Position numbers and translations under genes: made by a program. Of a stretch of DNA of 64,000 nucleotides, positions 28,244-38,484 are shown one piece after another. The first letter of the stretch is position 1, and the number at the start of each line of letters is the position of its first letter. This DNA is from Alphaproteobacteria bacterium (GTDB taxonomy: Bacteria; Pseudomonadota; Alphaproteobacteria; JAAEOK01), in NCBI GenBank assembly GCA_024244705.1, contig JAAEOK010000032.1, forward strand, positions 62,001-126,000. The letters are read 5' to 3'. Under the pieces are notes generated by a model. The model worked only from the letters and a program-made list of their open reading frames with translations, was not told the DNA's origin and ran no database searches.

Positions 28244-29833
28244 ATGCCGACAATAGTTATCATCGACGACCGGGCAACGAACCGGAACATTTTGACGCGC
28301 TTGGCGAAGGTGGTCGAGCCAGGCGGGCGCGTGGAGGCGTTCGCGTCGCCGGAAGCCGCGCTCGAGTGGGTCGAGGACAACATTCCGGACCTCGTGGTTA
28401 CCGATTTCAAAATGGGTGCCATGAACGGCGCCGAATTCGTCCGGGCGTTCCGCAAATTGCCTATGTGCTATGACGTCCCGGCTATCGTCGTCACAATCTA
28501 CGAGGATCGAAATTTCCGCTATGAGGCGCTGGAGGCGGGGGCCACGGACTTCCTGCTGAGTCCGATCGACCACAATGAGTTTCAAGCGCGAGCGAAGAAT
28601 CTGCTGACGCTTCGCCGCCAGCAACAAATCATCAAGAACCGTGCCGTGTCGTTGGAACAGCGCTTGATGACCAACGAGCGCGAGCACAAGGTCGCGCTGC
28701 GGGAAAGTCAGGAAACGCTGCGGCGCGTCATAAACGCTGTACCGGCGATGATCAGCGCCTGCGATAGCAAGTCGAACTACATATTCATGAACAGCTTCCA
28801 AGCGGAGCAGCTGGGCATCACCCCGGCGGAGGCGGTGGACCGTACGGCCATAGACCTGTTCGGCAAGGAATATGGTCTTCGCAACATGGAACTCGACCGC
28901 GAAGTTTTCAAAACCGGCGAGACAGTGCCCCGGATCGAGGAAACCTATACCGCCCGTGATGGGTCGTCGCGGGTCCTTCTGACGACCAAATCGCCATTGA
29001 AAGATGCCGCCGGACAGGTCACCAACGTGGTGACTGTGTCGCTCGATATTACCGAACGCAAAGCAGCGGAAGAGGAACTCAAGGAAGCCAAGGATGCCGC
29101 GGTGGCGGCCAATAGGTCGAAGACGGAATTCCTCGCCAACATGAGCCACGAACTGCGAACCCCGTTGAACGCAATCATCGGCTTTGCGGAAATCATGACG
29201 ACAGAAACGCTTGGTCCGATCGGCAGTCCGCGATATCGCGAATATGCGCGTGACATCGGCGACAGCGCGACCCACCTGCTGGATATCATCAACGATATTC
29301 TCGACGTCTCGAAGATCGAGGCCGGCAAGCTCGACGTTTTTGAGGAAGAAGTCGGAATCGCCGAGGCGATAGACAGCGTCGTTCGCCTTGTCAAACCGCG
29401 GTCACAGGAGGCGGGCATCGAAATCGCGATCACGGTCGCCAATGCGCTGCCGACTCTGCGTATCGATGCGCGCCATCTCAAGCAGGTCCTCCTGAACATC
29501 CTTTCGAATGCTCTCAAGTTTACCGAAAAGGGCGGCGAAGTCGGCATAGGCGCCAGTCTCGAACGCGGCGGTGAGCTTTGTATCGATGTCTCGGATAGCG
29601 GCATCGGAATGACCGATGAGGAAATCAAGATCGCGACCTCGCGCTTCGGTCAAGTCGAGAGTTCGATGGCGCGAAAATTCCATGGCACCGGCCTCGGACT
29701 CCCGCTCGCCATCGGTTTGCTGGAACTTCACGACGGCCGGCTGGATATATCCAGTTCGAAGGGGAAGGGGACGACCGTCACCATCGCATTCCCTGCGGCC
29801 CGGCTGATGCGTCGGTCGAAGAACACACAATAG
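28244..29833 (+). CDS. REC-PAS-histidine kinase of the DSF cluster
   Basis: A soluble 529-aa signalling protein: N-terminal receiver domain (1-125; acidic Asp8/Asp9, phospho-acceptor Asp54 in VVTDFKM, Thr84), a coiled connector (125-160), a PAS domain (about 160-275; AVPAMISACDSKSNYIFMN), then HisKA with His302 in [19 protein letters not shown] and HATPase_c with the N, G1 (DSGIGM) and G2 (GTGLGLPLA) boxes. The receiver Lys that closes the switch is replaced by Ser106 (FLLSPID instead of FLxKPxD). The HisKA segment with LGPIGSPRYREYARDIGDSA is of the PleC/DivJ type. It precedes the RpfC-like gene by 147 bases on the same strand, where Xanthomonas would have RpfG. Confidence 0.9.
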   Translation: MPTIVIIDDRATNRNILTRLAKVVEPGGRVEAFASPEAALEWVEDNIPDLVVTDFKMGAMNGAEFVRAFRKLPMCYDVPAIVVTIYEDRNFRYEALEAGATDFLLSPIDHNEFQARAKNLLTLRRQQQIIKNRAVSLEQRLMTNEREHKVALRESQETLRRVINAVPAMISACDSKSNYIFMNSFQAEQLGITPAEAVDRTAIDLFGKEYGLRNMELDREVFKTGETVPRIEETYTARDGSSRVLLTTKSPLKDAAGQVTNVVTVSLDITERKAAEEELKEAKDAAVAANRSKTEFLANMSHELRTPLNAIIGFAEIMTTETLGPIGSPRYREYARDIGDSATHLLDIINDILDVSKIEAGKLDVFEEEVGIAEAIDSVVRLVKPRSQEAGIEIAITVANALPTLRIDARHLKQVLLNILSNALKFTEKGGEVGIGASLERGGELCIDVSDSGIGMTDEEIKIATSRFGQVESSMARKFHGTGLGLPLAIGLLELHDGRLDISSSKGKGTTVTIAFPAARLMRRSKNTQ

Positions 29834-29980: not shown

Positions 29981-32785
29981 ATGGGCAAACTGGCCTTTAA
30001 AAGCAAGGCGTCACGCTCCGCCAAAAGCGAAGCCGGCCAACGGCGTTCGGACCGCCGATTGATCGTTATCACCTTATTGCTCGCGTTTTCTTCGATTTTT
30101 TCCATATCCGTATTGGTCTATTTCGTACTCGTTAGGGACGATTGGAGCTGGCCGATGTGGCCGCCTCTGGTCTTATTGGCGGGCCTGGTCGCCGCGCCAT
30201 TGGCGGTGGTCTACCGTGTATCCCGACTCGGACTGCGCCGTATTGGCGAACAATTTCAGAAACGCCCCGATTCCGAACACGAACAGATCCTGATTCGCGT
30301 CGGCATGGTGGTGGTCATCCTGATCTACCTGATCGCGCTATTGGGCGCCGGCCACATGACGCCCGACGCGGTCCGCTCGCTCGACGCGGTCATGGGGGCA
30401 GGCCTTTGCCTCCAGCTGCTGGCCTGGCTCCTGTTTCTCCACCTGCTTTACCGCCCTGAAAAATCGGCGTTACGCCGCGGCATAGGAATCGCCGCCGATA
30501 ATACCGTGCTTTCGGCAGTGCTTTTTGCCGGTGGCGACGTGATGGCGCCGTGGTATGGGGTCTATTTGTGGGTCACGTTCGGTAACGGTTTCCGATATGG
30601 CCGAAGCTATCTACTAGCCTCTGCGATCCTCAGCCTTGTCGGATTCACATTCGTCGTAATCGAGACGCCGTTTTGGTCGGCGAACATGACGGTATCGGTC
30701 GGATTGCTCGTCGCTCTTGTCGCACTGCCCGCCTATGTCTCGACATTGATCAAGAAGCTCAGCGATGCGAAGGCGCAGGCGGAAGAAGCCAATCGCGCCA
30801 AGAGCCGGTTCCTCGCGACGATGAGCCATGAACTTCGCACGCCGCTCAATGCGGTAATAGGCATGAGCGATGTGTTGCGTGACACCCATCTCGATCGCGA
30901 ACAAAGCGAAATGGCGGCGACGATCAAGACGTCCGCACGTTCGCTGCTGTCTTTGATCAACGACATTCTCGATTTTTCCAAGATCGAAGCCGGCAAAATG
31001 ACAACCGAGAATGTCGACTTCGATCTTCACGAAATGATGGCTGGCGTGCGCAACATGCTGGCTCAGCAAACGCAGGGCAAGGATATCAGACTCGGCGTTC
31101 ACGTCACCGCGAAGACCCCCTATTTGCTGTGCGGGGATGCCCAGCACCTCCACGAAATTCTCGTCAACTTGGTCGCCAACGCGTTGAAGTTCACCGAAAC
31201 CGGCGCGGTCGACATTGTTGCCAATGCGGTTGAAGAGAGTTTCGAAAAAGTTCGTGTGCGTATCGAGGTGCGGGATACGGGAATTGGAATTGCATCGGAC
31301 AAGCTCGAGCACATTTTTGACAGCTTCACCCAGGCCGATGAATCCGTAAATCGCAGGTTCGGCGGAACCGGATTAGGATTGGCGATATCCAAGCAACTCA
31401 TCGAAACGATGGATGGACGTATCGGTGTTGAAAGCGACGAGGGACAGGGCAGCATCTTTTGGTTCACCATTGATGTCACCAAACAACCGCTGAAGGCGGC
31501 CGATCATCAATCACTGAAGTTCAATGAAGATCGGGTCGTTATAGTCTCGACCGATCATATCGCCGCACGCCGCATGGCGGAGGCGGTCTATAGGCTTGGT
31601 CTTCACGCGGTCGTTTCCGACAATCCTTATGATCCCCTGGCCAGCTCCCGCCAAAATATCGGCGGCCAATCTGGACGTACTATCGTAATAGCCGACGAGG
31701 TGGGGTTGGGGCTGGGTCTGTCTCAATTTACCACTATCCTCCGTGACAAGGCGGGCGCGAACCGCGTCGCGACAATTATCGTGGCGCCTCTCGAACGCGA
31801 TTTCATACGTAATGATTGGATTACCGGTGACGCCATCGCGTTGATCGAAGATGCGCTTGATCCGCAGCAGCTATTCAATGCCCTGCATGCGGCACAGGCC
31901 GGCGGTTTGGCCGCCAGCCCGTTTGGCGAACGTGCAAACGCGCTGGCGGCCCAAACGAGCCGTAAGCTCAATGTGATGGTAGCGGAGGACAATCGAACAA
32001 ACCGCCGCGTTTTGTCGAAAATCCTCGAGCGTGCGGGTCACGACTGTATGGTTGCCGCGAATGGAGAAGAGGCGTTGGACCTGCTCGAGGCGCATACCTT
32101 CGATATCGTGTTCATGGACGTAAACATGCCGACAATGAATGGTATCGAAGCGGCAAAGATGTTCAGATTCACAAATCTTGGCGCGCCCCATGTACCGATC
32201 GTTGCGCTCAGCGCGGATGCCACCCCGGAAACGCAAGAGGCTTGTGAGGAAGCGGGCATGGACGCATTCCAGACCAAGCCGGTCGAGGCCGCACAACTAC
32301 TTGCTCTCATCGACAGATTGGTGCCCGAGGAACCCGTGCCCGAACCGGAAACCGATTCGCCGGTTTCGTCCGTGGAAAAGGTCACGACTCACCCCAGGTT
32401 CCATGCCGGAAGTGAGCCTGCGATAGAGATCGGCACCATCGAAAACCTTCGACAGCTCGCAGGTGACGACAAGTTTGTTGCCGAAGTCGTTCAGGATTTT
32501 ATCGAAGACGCCGAATTCGCTCTCGAAGAGATGGAGCGGGCATATGAAAAGCTGGATGTGCGCGGGTTTCGCGATCACGTACACGCGCTGCGTAGCAGTA
32601 GCGCCAATATCGGCGCCATGCGTATATTCAATCTATGTATGGAGATTAGCGGTATCAGTCCCCAGGATATGCGCGCCCGAGGGTCGGAGTACGTTGCCCA
32701 GTTCAAAGAAGAGTTTCGTCGCGCGCGGCAGGAACTCATCGTCGTCGCCAACGGGGTCGCGAAAAAGGAATTCAAACCGCACTAA
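29981..32785 (+). CDS. rpfC: RpfC-like DSF sensor hybrid histidine kinase
   Basis: A 934-aa membrane kinase with about seven hydrophobic segments (residues about 26-260) including the RpfC-type [20 protein letters not shown] motif, a HisKA domain with His283 ([15 protein letters not shown]), HATPase_c ([16 protein letters not shown]), a degenerate pseudo-receiver, a receiver with phospho-acceptor Asp713 ([11 protein letters not shown]) and a C-terminal Hpt domain with His868 ([12 protein letters not shown]). This order and the motifs match RpfC, the receptor for cis-2-unsaturated fatty acid signals. It is convergent with the RpfF-like synthase, 171 bases apart. Start ATG 29981. That the ligand is a DSF-type acid is inferred from family and neighbour. 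Confidence 0.88.
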
Positions 32786-32956: not shown

Positions 32957-33934
32957 TCAACGGTGCAATTTCTGCCAGCGGCGATCCTGTGCGTTAACCA
33001 GACGCTCCATCCGCCGCAGATCTTGCTCTTCTAGGTTCATCGCGGCATCGACCCAAATCGTGGCGATGTCCATTAATTCACCCCTCGTGACTGGGTTGAC
33101 GCGATGGCGAACCTTGTAAATTGCGCGATGCGCATTGAGCATTCGACCGTTTTTGTCGATATGCTCGTAGACCGCCATATCGCCTTCTCCGTCCTCGACG
33201 AGGATGTCGATGACACCCAGCTGGTAGAGCTCTTCAGCGCTGTAGACGCGGCCCGAGAAGATCATCCGCTCTGCTTGTACCGGATCGATTTTGCGGGCCA
33301 GCAAACTATATGCGCCCATACCCGGGAACAGATTGAACATCACTTCGGGCAGGCCAAACTTTGCACTACGTTCGGCGATCAGCAGATTGCAGGATAGAGC
33401 CGCTTCGAACCCGCCGCCGAGCGCGTCGCCCTTGATCAGTGCGACGGTCACCAATGGCAACCCCATACTGGTCGTATTTTGATAGACGCGTTCCGTCGTA
33501 TGCTGCGCATAGCGCTCGACGGCCTCTCGATCGCCGGCGCGGATCAATTCGACCAAGAGTTTCAGGTCGCCGCCAAGATTCCAAATGCCGGGCGTCTCCG
33601 TGGTCCACACCGCGAATCGAACCGGTGGGTCTCGCTCCACATCGGGCGCCTTGAACACTTTCTTGAGTTCGTTTTGAACTTCTGCGATGTCATCCAGAAG
33701 TTGAAAGGTGAAGCTCGGCCGGTGCCGTTGTTTGAAATAGCACCACAGGATTCGCTCTTGGCTGTCGAAGCGGGTTTCCAGCTCGGTGTATGTGCGGTTC
33801 AGAGGGTGGACGGAACCGTCGTCGTGGACGGGTAGGGCTTCGACAACGGTGGGGTCGTTTACCCGTTCGTTTCGTTCGATCTCTCGCAGTGCGCCGCGAA
33901 ATTCTTCGTAGGCTGGTTTGCGTATTACGGTCAT
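32957..33934 (-). CDS. rpfF: RpfF-like DSF synthase (crotonase fold)
   Basis: Enoyl-CoA hydratase/thioesterase of the RpfF family, which makes cis-2-unsaturated fatty acid signals from acyl-ACP. The 325-aa product has GIWNLGGDLKLL, the oxyanion-hole and catalytic segment GDALGGGFEAALSC with Glu177, and FGLPEVMFNLFPGMGAYSLLAR with Glu197; the spacing of 20 residues equals that of Glu141 and Glu161 in Xanthomonas RpfF. The SGRVYSAEELYQLGVID motif is also RpfF-like. ATG 33934 is chosen because GGGAGA precedes it; the frame stays open to 34096. The N-terminal extension of about 35 residues is unlike Xanthomonas RpfF (289 aa). It faces a promoter region with five CtrA-like sites. Confidence 0.87.
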   Translation of the reverse strand: MTVIRKPAYEEFRGALREIERNERVNDPTVVEALPVHDDGSVHPLNRTYTELETRFDSQERILWCYFKQRHRPSFTFQLLDDIAEVQNELKKVFKAPDVERDPPVRFAVWTTETPGIWNLGGDLKLLVELIRAGDREAVERYAQHTTERVYQNTTSMGLPLVTVALIKGDALGGGFEAALSCNLLIAERSAKFGLPEVMFNLFPGMGAYSLLARKIDPVQAERMIFSGRVYSAEELYQLGVIDILVEDGEGDMAVYEHIDKNGRMLNAHRAIYKVRHRVNPVTRGELMDIATIWVDAAMNLEEQDLRRMERLVNAQDRRWQKLHR

Positions 33935-34125
33935 GGATTGATTCTCCCGATCTCGTCGATACAAGTCGTCGGATGAACCGGATCCGGCCTGCCGACGACG
34001 CTCTTTAGGGGAGCTCAAGCTGTCCGCGCGGCGAGCGATTTCTTCGTTCTCGTTGGAATTCAATTCCGTAAAGCGTTCCGACCCTTCAGCCTTCACCGTT
34101 CGGACGTCCCCTGGTAGGCATGATT

Positions 34126-34190
34126 ATTGTTAACCAATTAAACCTTCGTTAACACTACTATTGTTAACCAATTAAACCTTCGTTAACACT
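34126..34190. repeat. Perfect 31-bp tandem duplication in the rpfF promoter region
   Basis: Two identical 31-base copies at 34126-34156 and 34160-34190, separated by three bases (period 34). Each copy carries three TTAA tetramers, the last two spaced as TTAA-N7-TTAA. The exact identity points to a recent duplication. Confidence 0.9.
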
Positions 34191-34240
34191 TTTTTAAGGA
34201 TTCAACTGAAATAGTTAACGAAGCGTTAACAATTAGTTAA
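34130..34240 (-). promoter_or_regulatory. Cluster of CtrA-like TTAA-N7-TTAA sites upstream of rpfF
   Basis: Ten TTAA tetramers start at 34130, 34138, 34149, 34164, 34172, 34183, 34194, 34215, 34226 and 34237. Five pairs have the exact CtrA spacing of 11 bases between starts: 34138/34149, 34172/34183, 34183/34194, 34215/34226 and 34226/34237. Most are flanked as GTTAAC. The cluster lies 196-306 bases upstream of the rpfF ATG and 50 bases past the marR stop, so it belongs to the 355-base rpfF control region (33935-34289), which has no coding capacity that I can support. CtrA binding is inferred from consensus only. Confidence 0.6.
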
Positions 34241-34289
34241 CGTTGCCAAGTGGGGCCGGGTTCAGGTGTGGGGTAAAGCATTGAGCGGG

Positions 34290-34751
34290 CTAGGTTACCC
34301 GGCCGAGCTCGCCGGCGCGCCGCTGCAGCTTGTTAAGGATGCCGTCGAGTTGGCTGGTCTCCGACTCGGTCAACACGGTCAACAACTGCGTCTCGATGTA
34401 TCGTGCGAACGGAACGATTTCCGCATAAATGCGGCGACCTTTCTTCGAAAGGCGAAGTTTCGAACGGCGCCGGTCTCGATCGTCGATGCGACGCTCGATC
34501 AGTTGGCGCGACAGCATTCGACCGACGGCCCGGCTGACGCGAACTTTATCCATGGCGGTCCGCCGGCATATCTCGTTGGCAGCCAAATCGCTGGTCATAC
34601 CCAGGACTGCCATTACCCGCCACTCCGCGACGGTGACACCAAACCGTTCTGCATAAATCTTGGCGATCGCGCCACTGACCGTGTTGGTCAGCACCGACAA
34701 GCGGTAGGGCAGGAAATCGTCGAGATGGAGATCCGAGTTTGTCATCGTCAT
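34290..34751 (-). CDS. MarR family transcriptional regulator of the homogentisate operon
   Basis: A 153-aa winged-helix regulator: dimerisation helices at both ends, recognition helix region LAANEICRRTAMDKVRVSRAVGRMLSRQLIERRIDDRDRRRSKLRLSKKG, where the wing has the MarR-typical DxRxxxLxLT pattern. It is divergent from hmgA, and a perfect 18-bp palindrome lies in the intergenic promoter, so it very likely represses hmgA and itself and is released by an aromatic ligand such as homogentisate. Start ATG 34751; a second in-frame ATG six bases later is possible. The gene is upstream of, and on the same strand as, rpfF, but 355 bases separate them. Confidence 0.88.
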   Translation of the reverse strand: MTMTNSDLHLDDFLPYRLSVLTNTVSGAIAKIYAERFGVTVAEWRVMAVLGMTSDLAANEICRRTAMDKVRVSRAVGRMLSRQLIERRIDDRDRRRSKLRLSKKGRRIYAEIVPFARYIETQLLTVLTESETSQLDGILNKLQRRAGELGRVT

Positions 34752-34757
34752 TGATAC

Positions 34758-34786
34758 TTGGAATTAGTTTCAATTGAAACTATATT
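34758..34786 (+). promoter_or_regulatory. hmgA promoter with MarR operator palindrome
   Basis: A -35-like TTGGAA (34758-34763) and a -10-like TATATT (34781-34786) are 17 bases apart, pointing to hmgA 55 bases downstream. The spacer is filled by a perfect 18-bp palindrome, TAGTTTCAATTGAAACTA (34765-34782), which overlaps the -10 box. This is the expected place and size for a MarR dimer to block RNA polymerase; it would also cover the marR promoter on the other strand. Confidence 0.7.
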
Positions 34787-34840: not shown

Positions 34841-35974
34841 ATGAAGCAGTGGATTACGCTACCGCGTGTCGAAGGTACGGCGTCGCGCCAGGCTCATGCG
34901 GACCTGCCCGAGGGAACCTACGAAAGGGAACTCGGCAAGGAAGGCTTTTTCGGACCCGCCACGCACATGCACCACACCCATCCGCCGACCGCCTGGGTGG
35001 ACTGGGAAGGTCCGCTTCGGCCCCGCGCCTTCGACCTTTCGAAGCTTAGCGCGGTGTCGAATTCACCCTGGGACGCCTGCGAAATCCTGCACAACGCCCA
35101 CGTCCGAATGCGCCTGTGGCGGATCGCCGGCGCGATGAATCATTTGGTTCGAAACGCGGATGGTGACGATTTGATATTCGTACATGAGGGCGCGGGGGAT
35201 CTGTTTTGCGACTATGGACATCTCGAAATCGGCGAGGGCGATTATGTCATGCTGCCGCGTGGCACGATGTGGCGAGTCGATGCCCGCGAGCCGATGGTGG
35301 CGCTGTTGATCGAAGCGACCAATGACAGTTACCGGCTGCCGGACAAGGGCATGGTCGGGCGCCATGCGATTTTCGACCCCGCGATCCTCGATCTGCCCGC
35401 AATCGACGACCCATTTCGCGCTCAGCAAGGTGAGCAGGAATGGAAGGTCGTGATCAAACGGCGCAACGCGCTGAGTACCGTCACCTTTCCCTTCAATCCT
35501 CTGGACGCCGTCGGTTGGCATGGCGATTTGGTGCCGGTACGAATCAATTGGCGTCATATTCGCCCGCTGATGAGCCATCGCTATCATGTGCCGCCATCCG
35601 CACATACGACGTTCCTTGCCGGACGTTTCGTCGTTTGTACGTTTTGCCCGCGCCCGATTGAAAGCGATCCGGGTGCGCTGAAGGTTCCCTTCTTCCATAA
35701 CAATGACGACTACGACGAGATCATTTTCTACCACCGTGGCGAGTTCTTCAGTCGCGACAACATTCATCCCGGGATGATGACGGTGCATCCCTGCGGATTC
35801 GCGCACGGGCCGCATCCAAAGGCGTTCCAGGCCGGCGCCAAGCACGCCAGGAAAGAAACCGACGAGGTGGCAGTCATGATCGATACCCGCGACGAGGTGG
35901 TTATCGATCCGGCCGCAACGACCGTCGAATGGAGCGGCTATGTCGATTCGTGGAAGACGGGGAACGAGGGATGA
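34841..35974 (+). CDS. hmgA: Homogentisate 1,2-dioxygenase family protein
   Basis: Opens the homogentisate ring to maleylacetoacetate with Fe(II) and oxygen, the key step of Tyr/Phe catabolism. The 377-aa product belongs to the shorter bacterial branch. Iron ligands are visible in the C-terminal half: VPFFHNNDDYDEIIFYHRGEF (His and Glu) and VHPCGFAHGPHP (His). The N-terminal half has the second cupin with MNHLVRNADGDDLIFVHEGAGDLFCDYGHLEIGEGDYVMLPRG. ATG 34841 follows GGGAG at a good distance; the frame starts upstream at 34820. It heads a four-gene operon controlled by the divergent MarR protein. Confidence 0.88.
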   Translation: MKQWITLPRVEGTASRQAHADLPEGTYERELGKEGFFGPATHMHHTHPPTAWVDWEGPLRPRAFDLSKLSAVSNSPWDACEILHNAHVRMRLWRIAGAMNHLVRNADGDDLIFVHEGAGDLFCDYGHLEIGEGDYVMLPRGTMWRVDAREPMVALLIEATNDSYRLPDKGMVGRHAIFDPAILDLPAIDDPFRAQQGEQEWKVVIKRRNALSTVTFPFNPLDAVGWHGDLVPVRINWRHIRPLMSHRYHVPPSAHTTFLAGRFVVCTFCPRPIESDPGALKVPFFHNNDDYDEIIFYHRGEFFSRDNIHPGMMTVHPCGFAHGPHPKAFQAGAKHARKETDEVAVMIDTRDEVVIDPAATTVEWSGYVDSWKTGNEG

Positions 35975-36963
35975 AACTTGGTTCGCGCAAAACCGATAGC
36001 CGCGACGGCGAACTTGTCGTGGTCGCCGGTGATCTTTCGCGGTGCGTCCCCGTTCCTCAAGTCGCCCCGACCTTGCAGTCCGCGATCGAGGATTGGAAAG
36101 AGGCCGCGCCCGAGCTCGCGGCGCTCTATCGATCACTTAATGACGGCAAAGTATCGAATGCCGAGATTTTCGATCGATCCGCAATGGCCTCGCCGTTGCC
36201 ACGCGCCTATCAATGGGCCGACGGCAGCGCCTATGTGAACCATGTCGAATTGGTGCGAAAGGCTCGAGGCGCCGAAATGCCGGCCGATTTTTGGATCAAC
36301 CCACTCATGTACCAGGGCGGCTCGGACGGGTTTCTCGGGCCGACCGATGATATCGTTGCGGGCAGCGAGGAACACGGCATCGATTTCGAATCCGAAGTCG
36401 CGGTGGTTACCGACGATGTGCCGATGGCGGTCGATGCCGATGCAGCAGCAGATCATATCAAGCTGATCATGTTAGCCAACGATGTCAGCCTTAGAAATTT
36501 GATCCCCGGCGAATTGGCCAAGGGTTTCGGCTTCTTTCAAGGCAAGCCGGCAAGCGCGTTTTCACCGGTGGCGGTGACACCGAACGAATTGGGGTCCGCT
36601 TGGGATGGACGCAAGGTCAACCTGCCGCTGGTTACCCACTTCAACGGCCGACTCTTTGGGCAGCCGAATGCCGGCCTCGATATGACCTTTGACTTCCCGA
36701 CCTTGGTGGCGCACGCCGCGGCGACTCGCCGACTTTCGGCGGGTACGATTGTCGGTTCCGGGACCGTTTCGAACGTCGACCGCAGCGCCGGTTCGTCATG
36801 CCTCGCCGAGCGCCGCATGCAGGAGCAAATCGAAAGTGGGGCACCCAAGACACCGTTCATGTCGTTTGGCGATACTGTGCGAATCGAAATGTTCGATCAG
36901 TCGGGTCAATCGATATTTGGTGCAATCGATCAACGGGTGGCAAAGCTGAACCCTGCGGCGTAA
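35971..36963 (+). CDS. Fumarylacetoacetate hydrolase family protein
   Basis: Last step of homogentisate breakdown: fumarylacetoacetate to fumarate and acetoacetate. The 330-aa product has the FAH fold with the metal-binding acids in GIDFESEVAVVTDDVP (two Glu) and the following NDVSLR, FGFFQGKPASAFSPVAVTP, and GSGTVSN. Its ATG overlaps the hmgA stop (ATGA at 35971-35974), so expression is coupled. The protein is shorter than mammalian FAH (about 420 aa), as is normal for bacterial FAH-like enzymes. Confidence 0.88.
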   Translation: MKLGSRKTDSRDGELVVVAGDLSRCVPVPQVAPTLQSAIEDWKEAAPELAALYRSLNDGKVSNAEIFDRSAMASPLPRAYQWADGSAYVNHVELVRKARGAEMPADFWINPLMYQGGSDGFLGPTDDIVAGSEEHGIDFESEVAVVTDDVPMAVDADAAADHIKLIMLANDVSLRNLIPGELAKGFGFFQGKPASAFSPVAVTPNELGSAWDGRKVNLPLVTHFNGRLFGQPNAGLDMTFDFPTLVAHAAATRRLSAGTIVGSGTVSNVDRSAGSSCLAERRMQEQIESGAPKTPFMSFGDTVRIEMFDQSGQSIFGAIDQRVAKLNPAA

Positions 36964-36997
36964 ATTGCGCGGGCTGCCTTGGCGTTGGGAGCCAGCG

Positions 36998-37840
36998 ATG
37001 TCGGTATCGATTTCATCGGTCGTCAGTGAAGAATTGATCTCGGAATTTGAAACGCGAGGCGCGGTTTGCCTGCGCGGCGTCTTTGATTCCAAGTGGGTCG
37101 ATTTGGTTGCGCAAGGTGTCGAATGCGAACTCGCCAATCCTGGCCCATTGGCGAAAGACTACTCCGCCGATGATGCGCCGGGCAGGTTCTTCGGCGATCT
37201 CGTCATGTGGCAGCGGGTTCCCCAATTTCGTGCTTTCGCCTTCGATTCTCCCGCTGCCGAAATCGCCGGCCGGGTGATGCGATCGGCGAAAGTCAATTTC
37301 TATCACGATCACCTATTGATCAAGGAGCCCGGCACGCGTGAGAAGACGCCGTGGCATCACGACCAGCCCTATTACTTTGTCAACGGCCGCCAGGTGTGCA
37401 GCATTTGGATGCCGCTTGATCCCGTGGACCGCGACACCTGTGTGCGTTTCGTTTCAGGGTCCCACAATTGGGGCCGATGGTTCGCGCCACGCTACTTTGT
37501 CGACGGCGAAGATTACTACGCTGACGAGGAGGAGGGGATCGAATCGATGCCGGATTTCGATTCCGCGCGCGATACGCACGATTTTCTGTTTTGGGATTTG
37601 GAACCTGGCGACTGCATCGTCTTTCATGCCTTGACCATCCATGGCGCACCGGGCAACGCCGCCACGCATCGCCGCCGGCGCGCCTACGCAACACGATGGA
37701 TGGGCGATGACGCCCGATTTGCCGAACGGCCGGGATTGGTTTCGCCGCAGATCGAAGGCCATGGATTGAAGCCCGGCGATGCCATGGATTGCGCGCACTT
37801 CCCAGTCATTTGGCGAGCACGACCGGAGTCCAATTTATGA
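36998..37840 (+). CDS. Phytanoyl-CoA dioxygenase (PhyH) family protein
   Basis: A 280-aa non-haem Fe(II)/2-oxoglutarate dioxygenase. The facial triad is visible as HHDQ (His-x-Asp in TPWHHDQPYYF) and the distal His in VFHALTIHGAPGN, with the 2-oxoglutarate-binding Arg in the RRRRAYATRWMGDD region. The reaction is unknown: PhyH proteins hydroxylate lipids, small acids, opines or sugars. It sits between the fumarylacetoacetase-type gene and maiA; its stop overlaps the maiA ATG, so it is a true operon member, which is not part of the textbook homogentisate pathway. ATG 36998 is preferred over 36965. Confidence 0.85.
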   Translation: MSVSISSVVSEELISEFETRGAVCLRGVFDSKWVDLVAQGVECELANPGPLAKDYSADDAPGRFFGDLVMWQRVPQFRAFAFDSPAAEIAGRVMRSAKVNFYHDHLLIKEPGTREKTPWHHDQPYYFVNGRQVCSIWMPLDPVDRDTCVRFVSGSHNWGRWFAPRYFVDGEDYYADEEEGIESMPDFDSARDTHDFLFWDLEPGDCIVFHALTIHGAPGNAATHRRRRAYATRWMGDDARFAERPGLVSPQIEGHGLKPGDAMDCAHFPVIWRARPESNL

Positions 37841-38484
37841 AGCTCTACACGTTTTATTTTTCCTCGGCGTCGTTTCGCGTTCGAATCGCCCTCCGACTCA
37901 AAGGGCTTGAAGACGACCCAATCTTTGTCAATCTTCGCGACGGCGACCAGTTCGAGCCCGGATACCTTCCCCTCAATCCACAGCAACAAGTGCCGACGCT
38001 CGATGATGGCGGTGTCGTGATCACGCAATCGCTGGCAATTCTCGAATATCTCGAGGAGGCCTATCCAGAACCGGCGCTCTTGCCTGCTACGCCCGATGAG
38101 CGCGCTCGGGTAAGGTCACTGGCGTTGGCGATAGCCTGCGACATTCATCCGCTCAACAATCTACGAGTGCTCAAATACCTGACCGGCGAAATGGGTCATG
38201 ATGAGACCGAACGGGACCAATGGTACCATCACTGGATTGCACTGGGACTTTCGGGTGTTGAGCGAATCTTGACGTTGACCGCGGGGACCGGCCGATTCTG
38301 CCATGGCGATAGCCCGACAATGGCCGATGTCTGTCTCGTGCCTCAGATATTCAACGCCAAGCGCTACGATTGTCCGTTGCAGGACTATCCCACGGTCATG
38401 TCAATATTCGATGCTTGCATGGCGCTCGAAGCGTTTGATGCCGCGCAACCGTTGAAGCAGTCCGACGCCCCAAAGGACCGTTAA
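37837..38484 (+). CDS. maiA: Maleylacetoacetate isomerase (zeta-class GST)
   Basis: Isomerises maleylacetoacetate to fumarylacetoacetate using glutathione, bridging hmgA and the fumarylacetoacetase-type hydrolase. The 215-aa product has the zeta-GST motif SSASFRVRIALRLKG with the catalytic Ser pair, LNPQQQVPTLDDG, TQSLAILEYLEEAYPEPALLP, and CDIHPLNNLRVLKYL typical of MaiA. Its ATG is inside the PhyH stop (ATGA 37837-37840). Its own stop overlaps the convergent dsbA-like gene by four bases. The expected QYPN-type residues are present in variant form (LPLNPQQQ), so identity as MaiA rests partly on context. Confidence 0.9.
   Translation: MKLYTFYFSSASFRVRIALRLKGLEDDPIFVNLRDGDQFEPGYLPLNPQQQVPTLDDGGVVITQSLAILEYLEEAYPEPALLPATPDERARVRSLALAIACDIHPLNNLRVLKYLTGEMGHDETERDQWYHHWIALGLSGVERILTLTAGTGRFCHGDSPTMADVCLVPQIFNAKRYDCPLQDYPTVMSIFDACMALEAFDAAQPLKQSDAPKDR

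Follow-up and report, generated by a model that had tools for sequence, protein, structure and literature searches.

The question raised by this locus is whether the promoter of a DSF-type signal synthase gene can be under the control of CtrA. In the window (the whole stretch of 64,000 nucleotides that was analysed) a gene homologous to rpfF is preceded by five exact TTAA-N7-TTAA pairs within 103 bp, which start at 34138, 34172, 34183, 34215 and 34226 and span 34138-34240, about 200-310 bp from the rpfF ATG (Table 1). An earlier note on this DNA, made from the letters alone, had counted these five pairs, had estimated that well under one would be expected by chance and had proposed that they are CtrA sites. 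The count is exact and the estimate holds, as shuffling the whole 64 kb window 100 times gave a mean of 0.22 TTAA-N7-TTAA per window. The window itself (58% GC) contains six exact matches in total, five of them in the array. If a full site or a TTAACCAT half-site upstream of a gene is taken as the mark of a CtrA-regulated promoter, five exact full sites are found in front of this rpfF.

The array is placed in a 125-bp patch that is 71% AT and contains ten TTAA and seven GTTAAC. When this patch was shuffled, with its AT richness kept, the mean was 0.077 pairs and five pairs were never reached in 20,000 trials. Given the ten TTAAs, the probability of at least five pairs at exactly 11-bp spacing is P = 2.5e-4. 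Owing to the 32-nt direct repeat at 34-bp spacing, the pairs at 34138 and 34172 represent a single site, present twice by duplication. With the tandem copy deleted from the patch, four pairs are left against 0.06 expected in composition-matched shuffles, and the 11-bp spacing test with the duplicate removed gives P = 3.5e-4; the array minus its duplication is still far beyond chance. Upstream of site 1 there are four more full sites, forming two pairs that overlap in an 11-bp register (one helical turn). A consensus scan of 33900-34320 for sigma70-like promoters returned a single match, against 0.2 expected in shuffles. This putative promoter, on the minus strand, consists of TTAACG (34152-34147), 18 nt and AATAAT (34128-34123), with its -35 inside site 1. 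Activating CtrA sites usually lie over the -35. The earlier note had anticipated neither the tandem duplication, nor the CtrA site in front of the sensor operon, nor the putative -35 within site 1. Crude simple-pattern scans of 34100-34260 for IHF, FNR, PhoB, LexA, Fur and CRP gave no match. A GANTC site (GATTC, 34199-34203) is found in the middle of the array, GANTC being the target of CcrM methylation.

Table 1. Features of the rpf locus in the window, with the predicted CtrA sites
Feature	Position	Strand	Remarks
Predicted CtrA full site TTAACACAGTGTTAA	28137..28151	+	107 bp before the start codon of the REC-PAS-HisKA-HATPase gene; sixth site of the window
REC-PAS-HisKA-HATPase protein	28244..29833	+	First gene of the sensor operon; kinase nearest to PdhS-type cell-cycle kinases
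RpfC-like hybrid sensor	29981..32785	+	N-terminal membrane segments, HisKA, HATPase, REC, Hpt; convergent to rpfF
rpfF homologue (DSF synthase, crotonase fold)	32957..33934	-	325 aa, ATG at 33934
34-bp tandem duplication	34125..34190		Perfect 32-nt copies 34125-34156 and 34159-34190
Predicted CtrA full site 1	34138..34152	-	Minus-strand TTAACGAAGGTTTAA; promoter-proximal, holds the putative rpfF -35
Predicted CtrA full site 2	34172..34186	-	Identical to site 1 through the tandem duplication
Predicted CtrA full site 3	34183..34197	-	Minus-strand TTAAAAAAGTGTTAA; one TTAA in common with site 2
Predicted CtrA full site 4	34215..34229	-	GTTAACGCTTCGTTAAC including flanks
Predicted CtrA full site 5	34226..34240	-	GTTAACTAATTGTTAAC including flanks; one TTAA in common with site 4
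MarR-family regulator	34290..34751	-	Gene end is 50 bp from the array, on its upstream side

The RpfF homologue matches the solved RpfF structures 6dgn (5e-55) and 3m6m (5e-53), its two conserved glutamate motifs, GGGFEAAL and LPEVMFNLFPGMG, align with 6dgn, and the position of its ATG agrees with the start of several orthologues. It passes the broader NCBIfam model NF006452 (357 vs 177 bits); the cut-off of the RpfF equivalog NF053515 is missed (229 vs 550 bits), and for this reason the gene is called an RpfF homologue here and its signal product is a predicted one. The adjoining sensor has the membrane input and the HisKA, HATPase, REC and Hpt domains of an RpfC-type protein. The rpf systems of Xanthomonas (RpfF-RpfC-RpfG) and Burkholderia (RpfF/RpfR) likewise have a crotonase of the RpfF family beside a convergent sensor (PMC4504480), and the domain order of the sensor is like that of Xanthomonas RpfC. 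The REC partner, however, is not of the RpfG type (REC plus HD-GYP), since it carries PAS and histidine kinase domains and no HD-GYP, and a further difference from these systems is that the promoter here carries predicted CtrA sites. The convergent three-gene order is common to most of the other alphaproteobacterial rpfF loci examined. The best NCBIfam match of the REC-PAS-HisKA-HATPase protein is PdhS (242 bits, far under the cut-off of a model set for a protein of >1000 residues), and the region after its phospho-acceptor histidine resembles that of the PdhS/DivJ group. Across the alphaproteobacteria (28244-29833 here and loci L010-L015, L037 and L078-L096) the REC domain of this rpf gene is retained while the output is swapped. 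The output is a HisKA kinase in this window, L078, L084 and L092, HisKA_2 in L010 and L011, and GGDEF-EAL in L012, L013, L037 and L093.

The MarR-family gene is probably a neighbour and not part of the rpf system. A perfect 18-bp palindrome, TAGTTTCAATTGAAACTA (34765-34782), separates marR from the divergent gene for a homogentisate-dioxygenase-like protein and is a probable MarR operator for the aromatic-catabolism operon 34841-38484. MarR was considered as the protein binding the array and was rejected, as the palindrome in front of marR itself is more likely to be its operator and the array does not contain it.

The absence of ctrA from the genome would have spoken against control by CtrA. 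CtrA is encoded (NCBIfam NF045991, 414 bits vs cut-off 350) and so is SciP (114 bits vs NCBIfam cut-off 100), while ChpT and CckA were identified as best matches, both below their NCBIfam cut-offs. The four genes are all inside a 20-kb stretch of contig C85. The full site TTAACCTTTCATTAACCAT, one of the seven TTAAC-N6-TTAAC loci of this genome, lies about 64 bp upstream of the first cckA start codon, and ctrA and sciP are each preceded by GTTAACC(AT) half-sites. As the same motif stands at cckA, ctrA and sciP, these core targets make the CtrA code of the genome readable. The overlapping full-plus-half site arrangement at cckA is the same as that of Ruegeria KLH11, where a CtrA site was predicted at cckA, yet CtrA was without effect on cckA expression (PMC3692519); control by CtrA is thus not proven by a predicted site. 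No flagellin was detectable in the genome, so the link here would be to the CtrA phosphorelay in general and not to motility.

Pattern searches of the draft genome (4.5 Mb) gave 51 TTAA-N7-TTAA matches, of which 34 are on contig C103. Outside this contig about 17 occur in about 4.43 Mb, five of them in the rpfF array, and among the matches listed there was no other case of two sites less than 500 bp apart. Clusters at random places, which the earlier note had named as evidence against its proposal, are not scattered through the genome. The first 20 kb of contig C103 (L053 of this genome, G000) have 25% GC, vs 58-67% in the other stretches examined, and the contig is probably of foreign origin and entered the draft genome by binning. 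By the same type of search, TTAAC-N6-TTAAC was found at seven loci outside the array and contig C103, with 14 other spacings sharing about eight (P about 2e-6); pairs of TTAAC are enriched at the CtrA spacing (N6) only. Other candidate CtrA targets, each with TTAA-N7-TTAA just 5' of the gene, encode a transglutaminase-like cysteine protease (L044, 9580), a BTAD-type regulator (L046, 8794) and a TadG-like protein (L047, 4366). In addition, GTTAACTTTTTGTTAACCAT is located about 84 bp 5' of uvrC (L048, around 8490; G000:C81:38491) and the DnaA-box-like TATCCACG and TGTGGGTAA follow within about 100 bp, so that possible DnaA boxes accompany a CtrA site here.

Conservation in relatives, the check that the earlier note had proposed, was followed at the level of the class. 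No other genomes of the same family were found, and the nearest relatives available belong to the same class only; the comparison is class-wide and bears on the recurrence of sites, not on the conservation of this particular array. The sample comprised 22 other genomes with rpfF homologues from 385, plus named loci, giving 31 other alphaproteobacterial loci. Exact full sites that include a TTAAC half lie at most 400 bp before rpfF in 4 of these 31, against 0.1 expected from shuffles, and CtrA-like sites thus recur at rpfF across the alphaproteobacteria. The four relatives bearing such sites are G297, with 10 full sites in a 3.8 Mb genome, G195, G015, with 15 in 4.8 Mb (two of these upstream of rpfF), and G232, with 6 in 2.9 Mb. 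In the order of G297 the site at about -48 of rpfF is kept in three species of one genus and TTAACCAT is kept at -46 or -47 in two further genera. A full site at -103 to -105 is shared by three species of one genus in the order of G232, where species of another genus have retained ATTAACC(A). The rpfF site of several relatives is at about -45 to -105, unlike the array described here. Sensor-operon promoters had exact sites in 3 of 23 cases (0.14 expected), and full sites at rpfF or the sensor operon are recurrent in several other genera. Many alphaproteobacterial rpfF promoters are without any CtrA-like site, and the predicted CtrA-rpfF link is recurrent, not universal.

The same motif emerged when all hexamers in the 150 bp before each rpfF were ranked, with this window excluded: in 30 dereplicated alphaproteobacterial promoters GTTAAC was first and TTAACC second. 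In comparison with 97 neighbouring genes TTAACC ranked first (8/30 against 3/97, OR 11, p = 4e-4, uncorrected for the number of hexamers), and before rpfF it occurs mainly in one orientation (8 against 2 of 30). In a further 30 loci (27 new, not dereplicated) GTTAAC and TTAACC tie for the highest raw count. Betaproteobacterial and gammaproteobacterial rpfF loci, used as controls, had one exact N7 site, in an upstream region of 39% GC, and the N9 spacing was over-represented in three AT-rich loci. This N9 excess indicates that shuffles understate chance in AT-rich DNA, which is why the rpfF promoters were also compared with neighbouring genes. For the relatives the shuffle-based figures were preferred, as a Poisson estimate on whole-genome density, which is mostly coding, overstates significance.

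The phosphorelay genes, the sites at core targets, the spacing enrichment and the class-wide recurrence support the CtrA reading of the array, and the region 34123-34240 is quite likely a CtrA-controlled promoter region for rpfF. Points that count against it are the greater distance of the array from the ATG than in several relatives and the many alphaproteobacterial rpfF promoters that have no CtrA-like site. A functionless AT-rich patch that arose by chance and was amplified by a recent tandem duplication could account for two of the five pairs being copies of one, but four pairs stay when the copy is removed and rpfF carries such sites in other genera too, so that this explanation is very unlikely. 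It is barely credible that the array is a replication origin or partition element. The Caulobacter origin also has five CtrA sites; here, however, the DnaA-box patterns scanned had no match anywhere in the window and the GC skew does not change at the array, and the origin reading was rejected for these reasons, while no rep or par genes adjoin the array either. Use of the array by another AT-preferring regulator (e.g. of MucR/Ros type), and not by CtrA, is improbable. The AT content of the patch would suit such a protein, and MucR-type proteins bind AT-rich promoters, some of which are also bound by CtrA, but AT richness explains neither the strict 11-bp spacing nor the C after TTAA, and the occurrence of the same motif at cckA, ctrA and sciP and the prevailing orientation of TTAACC before rpfF also argue against it.

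Binding of CtrA to the array could also have the opposite outcome, with repression or delay of rpfF as the net effect and DSF made at low CtrA activity. This alternative is a serious one, though rather doubtful. Dense arrays give RNA polymerase little room, in some relatives a half-site is close to the start codon, and the upstream CtrA sites of Caulobacter pilA lower and delay expression (PMC11264516). On the other hand the sole promoter-like match has its -35 within site 1, an activating position, and luxI2 and luxI3 are activated by CtrA in Dinoroseobacter (PMC4046655).

If the array acts as an activating CtrA promoter, phosphorylated CtrA would bind it cooperatively, the promoter-proximal copy, overlapping the -35, would drive rpfF, and the upstream copies would tune its threshold and timing in the manner of the Caulobacter pilA promoter with its four sites. 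In Caulobacter crescentus the -35 site of pilA drives expression, the other sites act on its level and timing, and the promoter is unusually sensitive to the CtrA level (PMC11264516). By this logic CtrA~P may switch rpfF with a steep threshold. The two promoters are alike in having one CtrA site over the -35 (putative here) and several more upstream. They differ in that the four pilA sites are degenerate and unevenly spaced, whereas here five exact sites overlap in the 11-bp register and include a tandem duplication, and in that the target here is a signal synthase. Since CtrA would drive rpfF, DSF-type signal output would follow CtrA activity, and in these bacteria signalling between cells is probably coupled to the cell cycle. 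The REC-PAS-HisKA-HATPase protein may return the perceived signal to DivK-CckA-CtrA and close the loop; this feedback is plausible and is the least certain step. More tentatively, in many alphaproteobacteria the rpf module (DSF synthase, RpfC-like sensor and PdhS/DivJ-like REC kinase) might be joined to the cell-cycle circuit both ways, with CtrA setting the production of DSF and the supply of the sensor, and perception of DSF acting back on DivK-CckA-CtrA.

A link between CtrA and AHL quorum sensing is already known. In Dinoroseobacter shibae the AHL synthase genes luxI2 and luxI3 are under CtrA control (Wang et al. 2014, PMC4046655). The same study describes luxI/luxR genes with predicted CtrA sites, though not universally, for Roseobacters and Rhizobia. 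Both cases have CtrA full sites, predicted here, in the promoter of a quorum-signal synthase and an occurrence scattered over the class. They differ in the signal, which would belong here to the DSF family (RpfF crotonase, cis-2-unsaturated fatty acids) and there is an AHL, and in the sensor, an RpfC-like kinase in place of LuxR; moreover, the sensor operon here also carries predicted CtrA sites. No published CtrA-RpfF link was found in the full-text literature, where a single paper names both CtrA and RpfF and draws no connection between them; this source leaves out most subscription journals, so that the absence is not proof. What appears to be added by the present locus is the DSF family, an unusually dense array and the involvement of several lineages. 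The principle of placing a signal synthase under CtrA would extend from AHL to the chemically unrelated DSF family. Predicted CtrA sites recur in front of rpfF and of sensor operons in several lineages of alphaproteobacteria. This suggests that the class generally couples signalling between cells to the CtrA phosphorelay, and it gives a simple testable prediction in cultured genera, that rpfF is dependent on CtrA. Two minor observations were made among the relatives. One rpfF match region (L061, G007:C54) has an in-frame TAG, perhaps upstream of the real start, and one genome of the order of G232 (G440) has three rpfF homologues (L130, L135 and L137).
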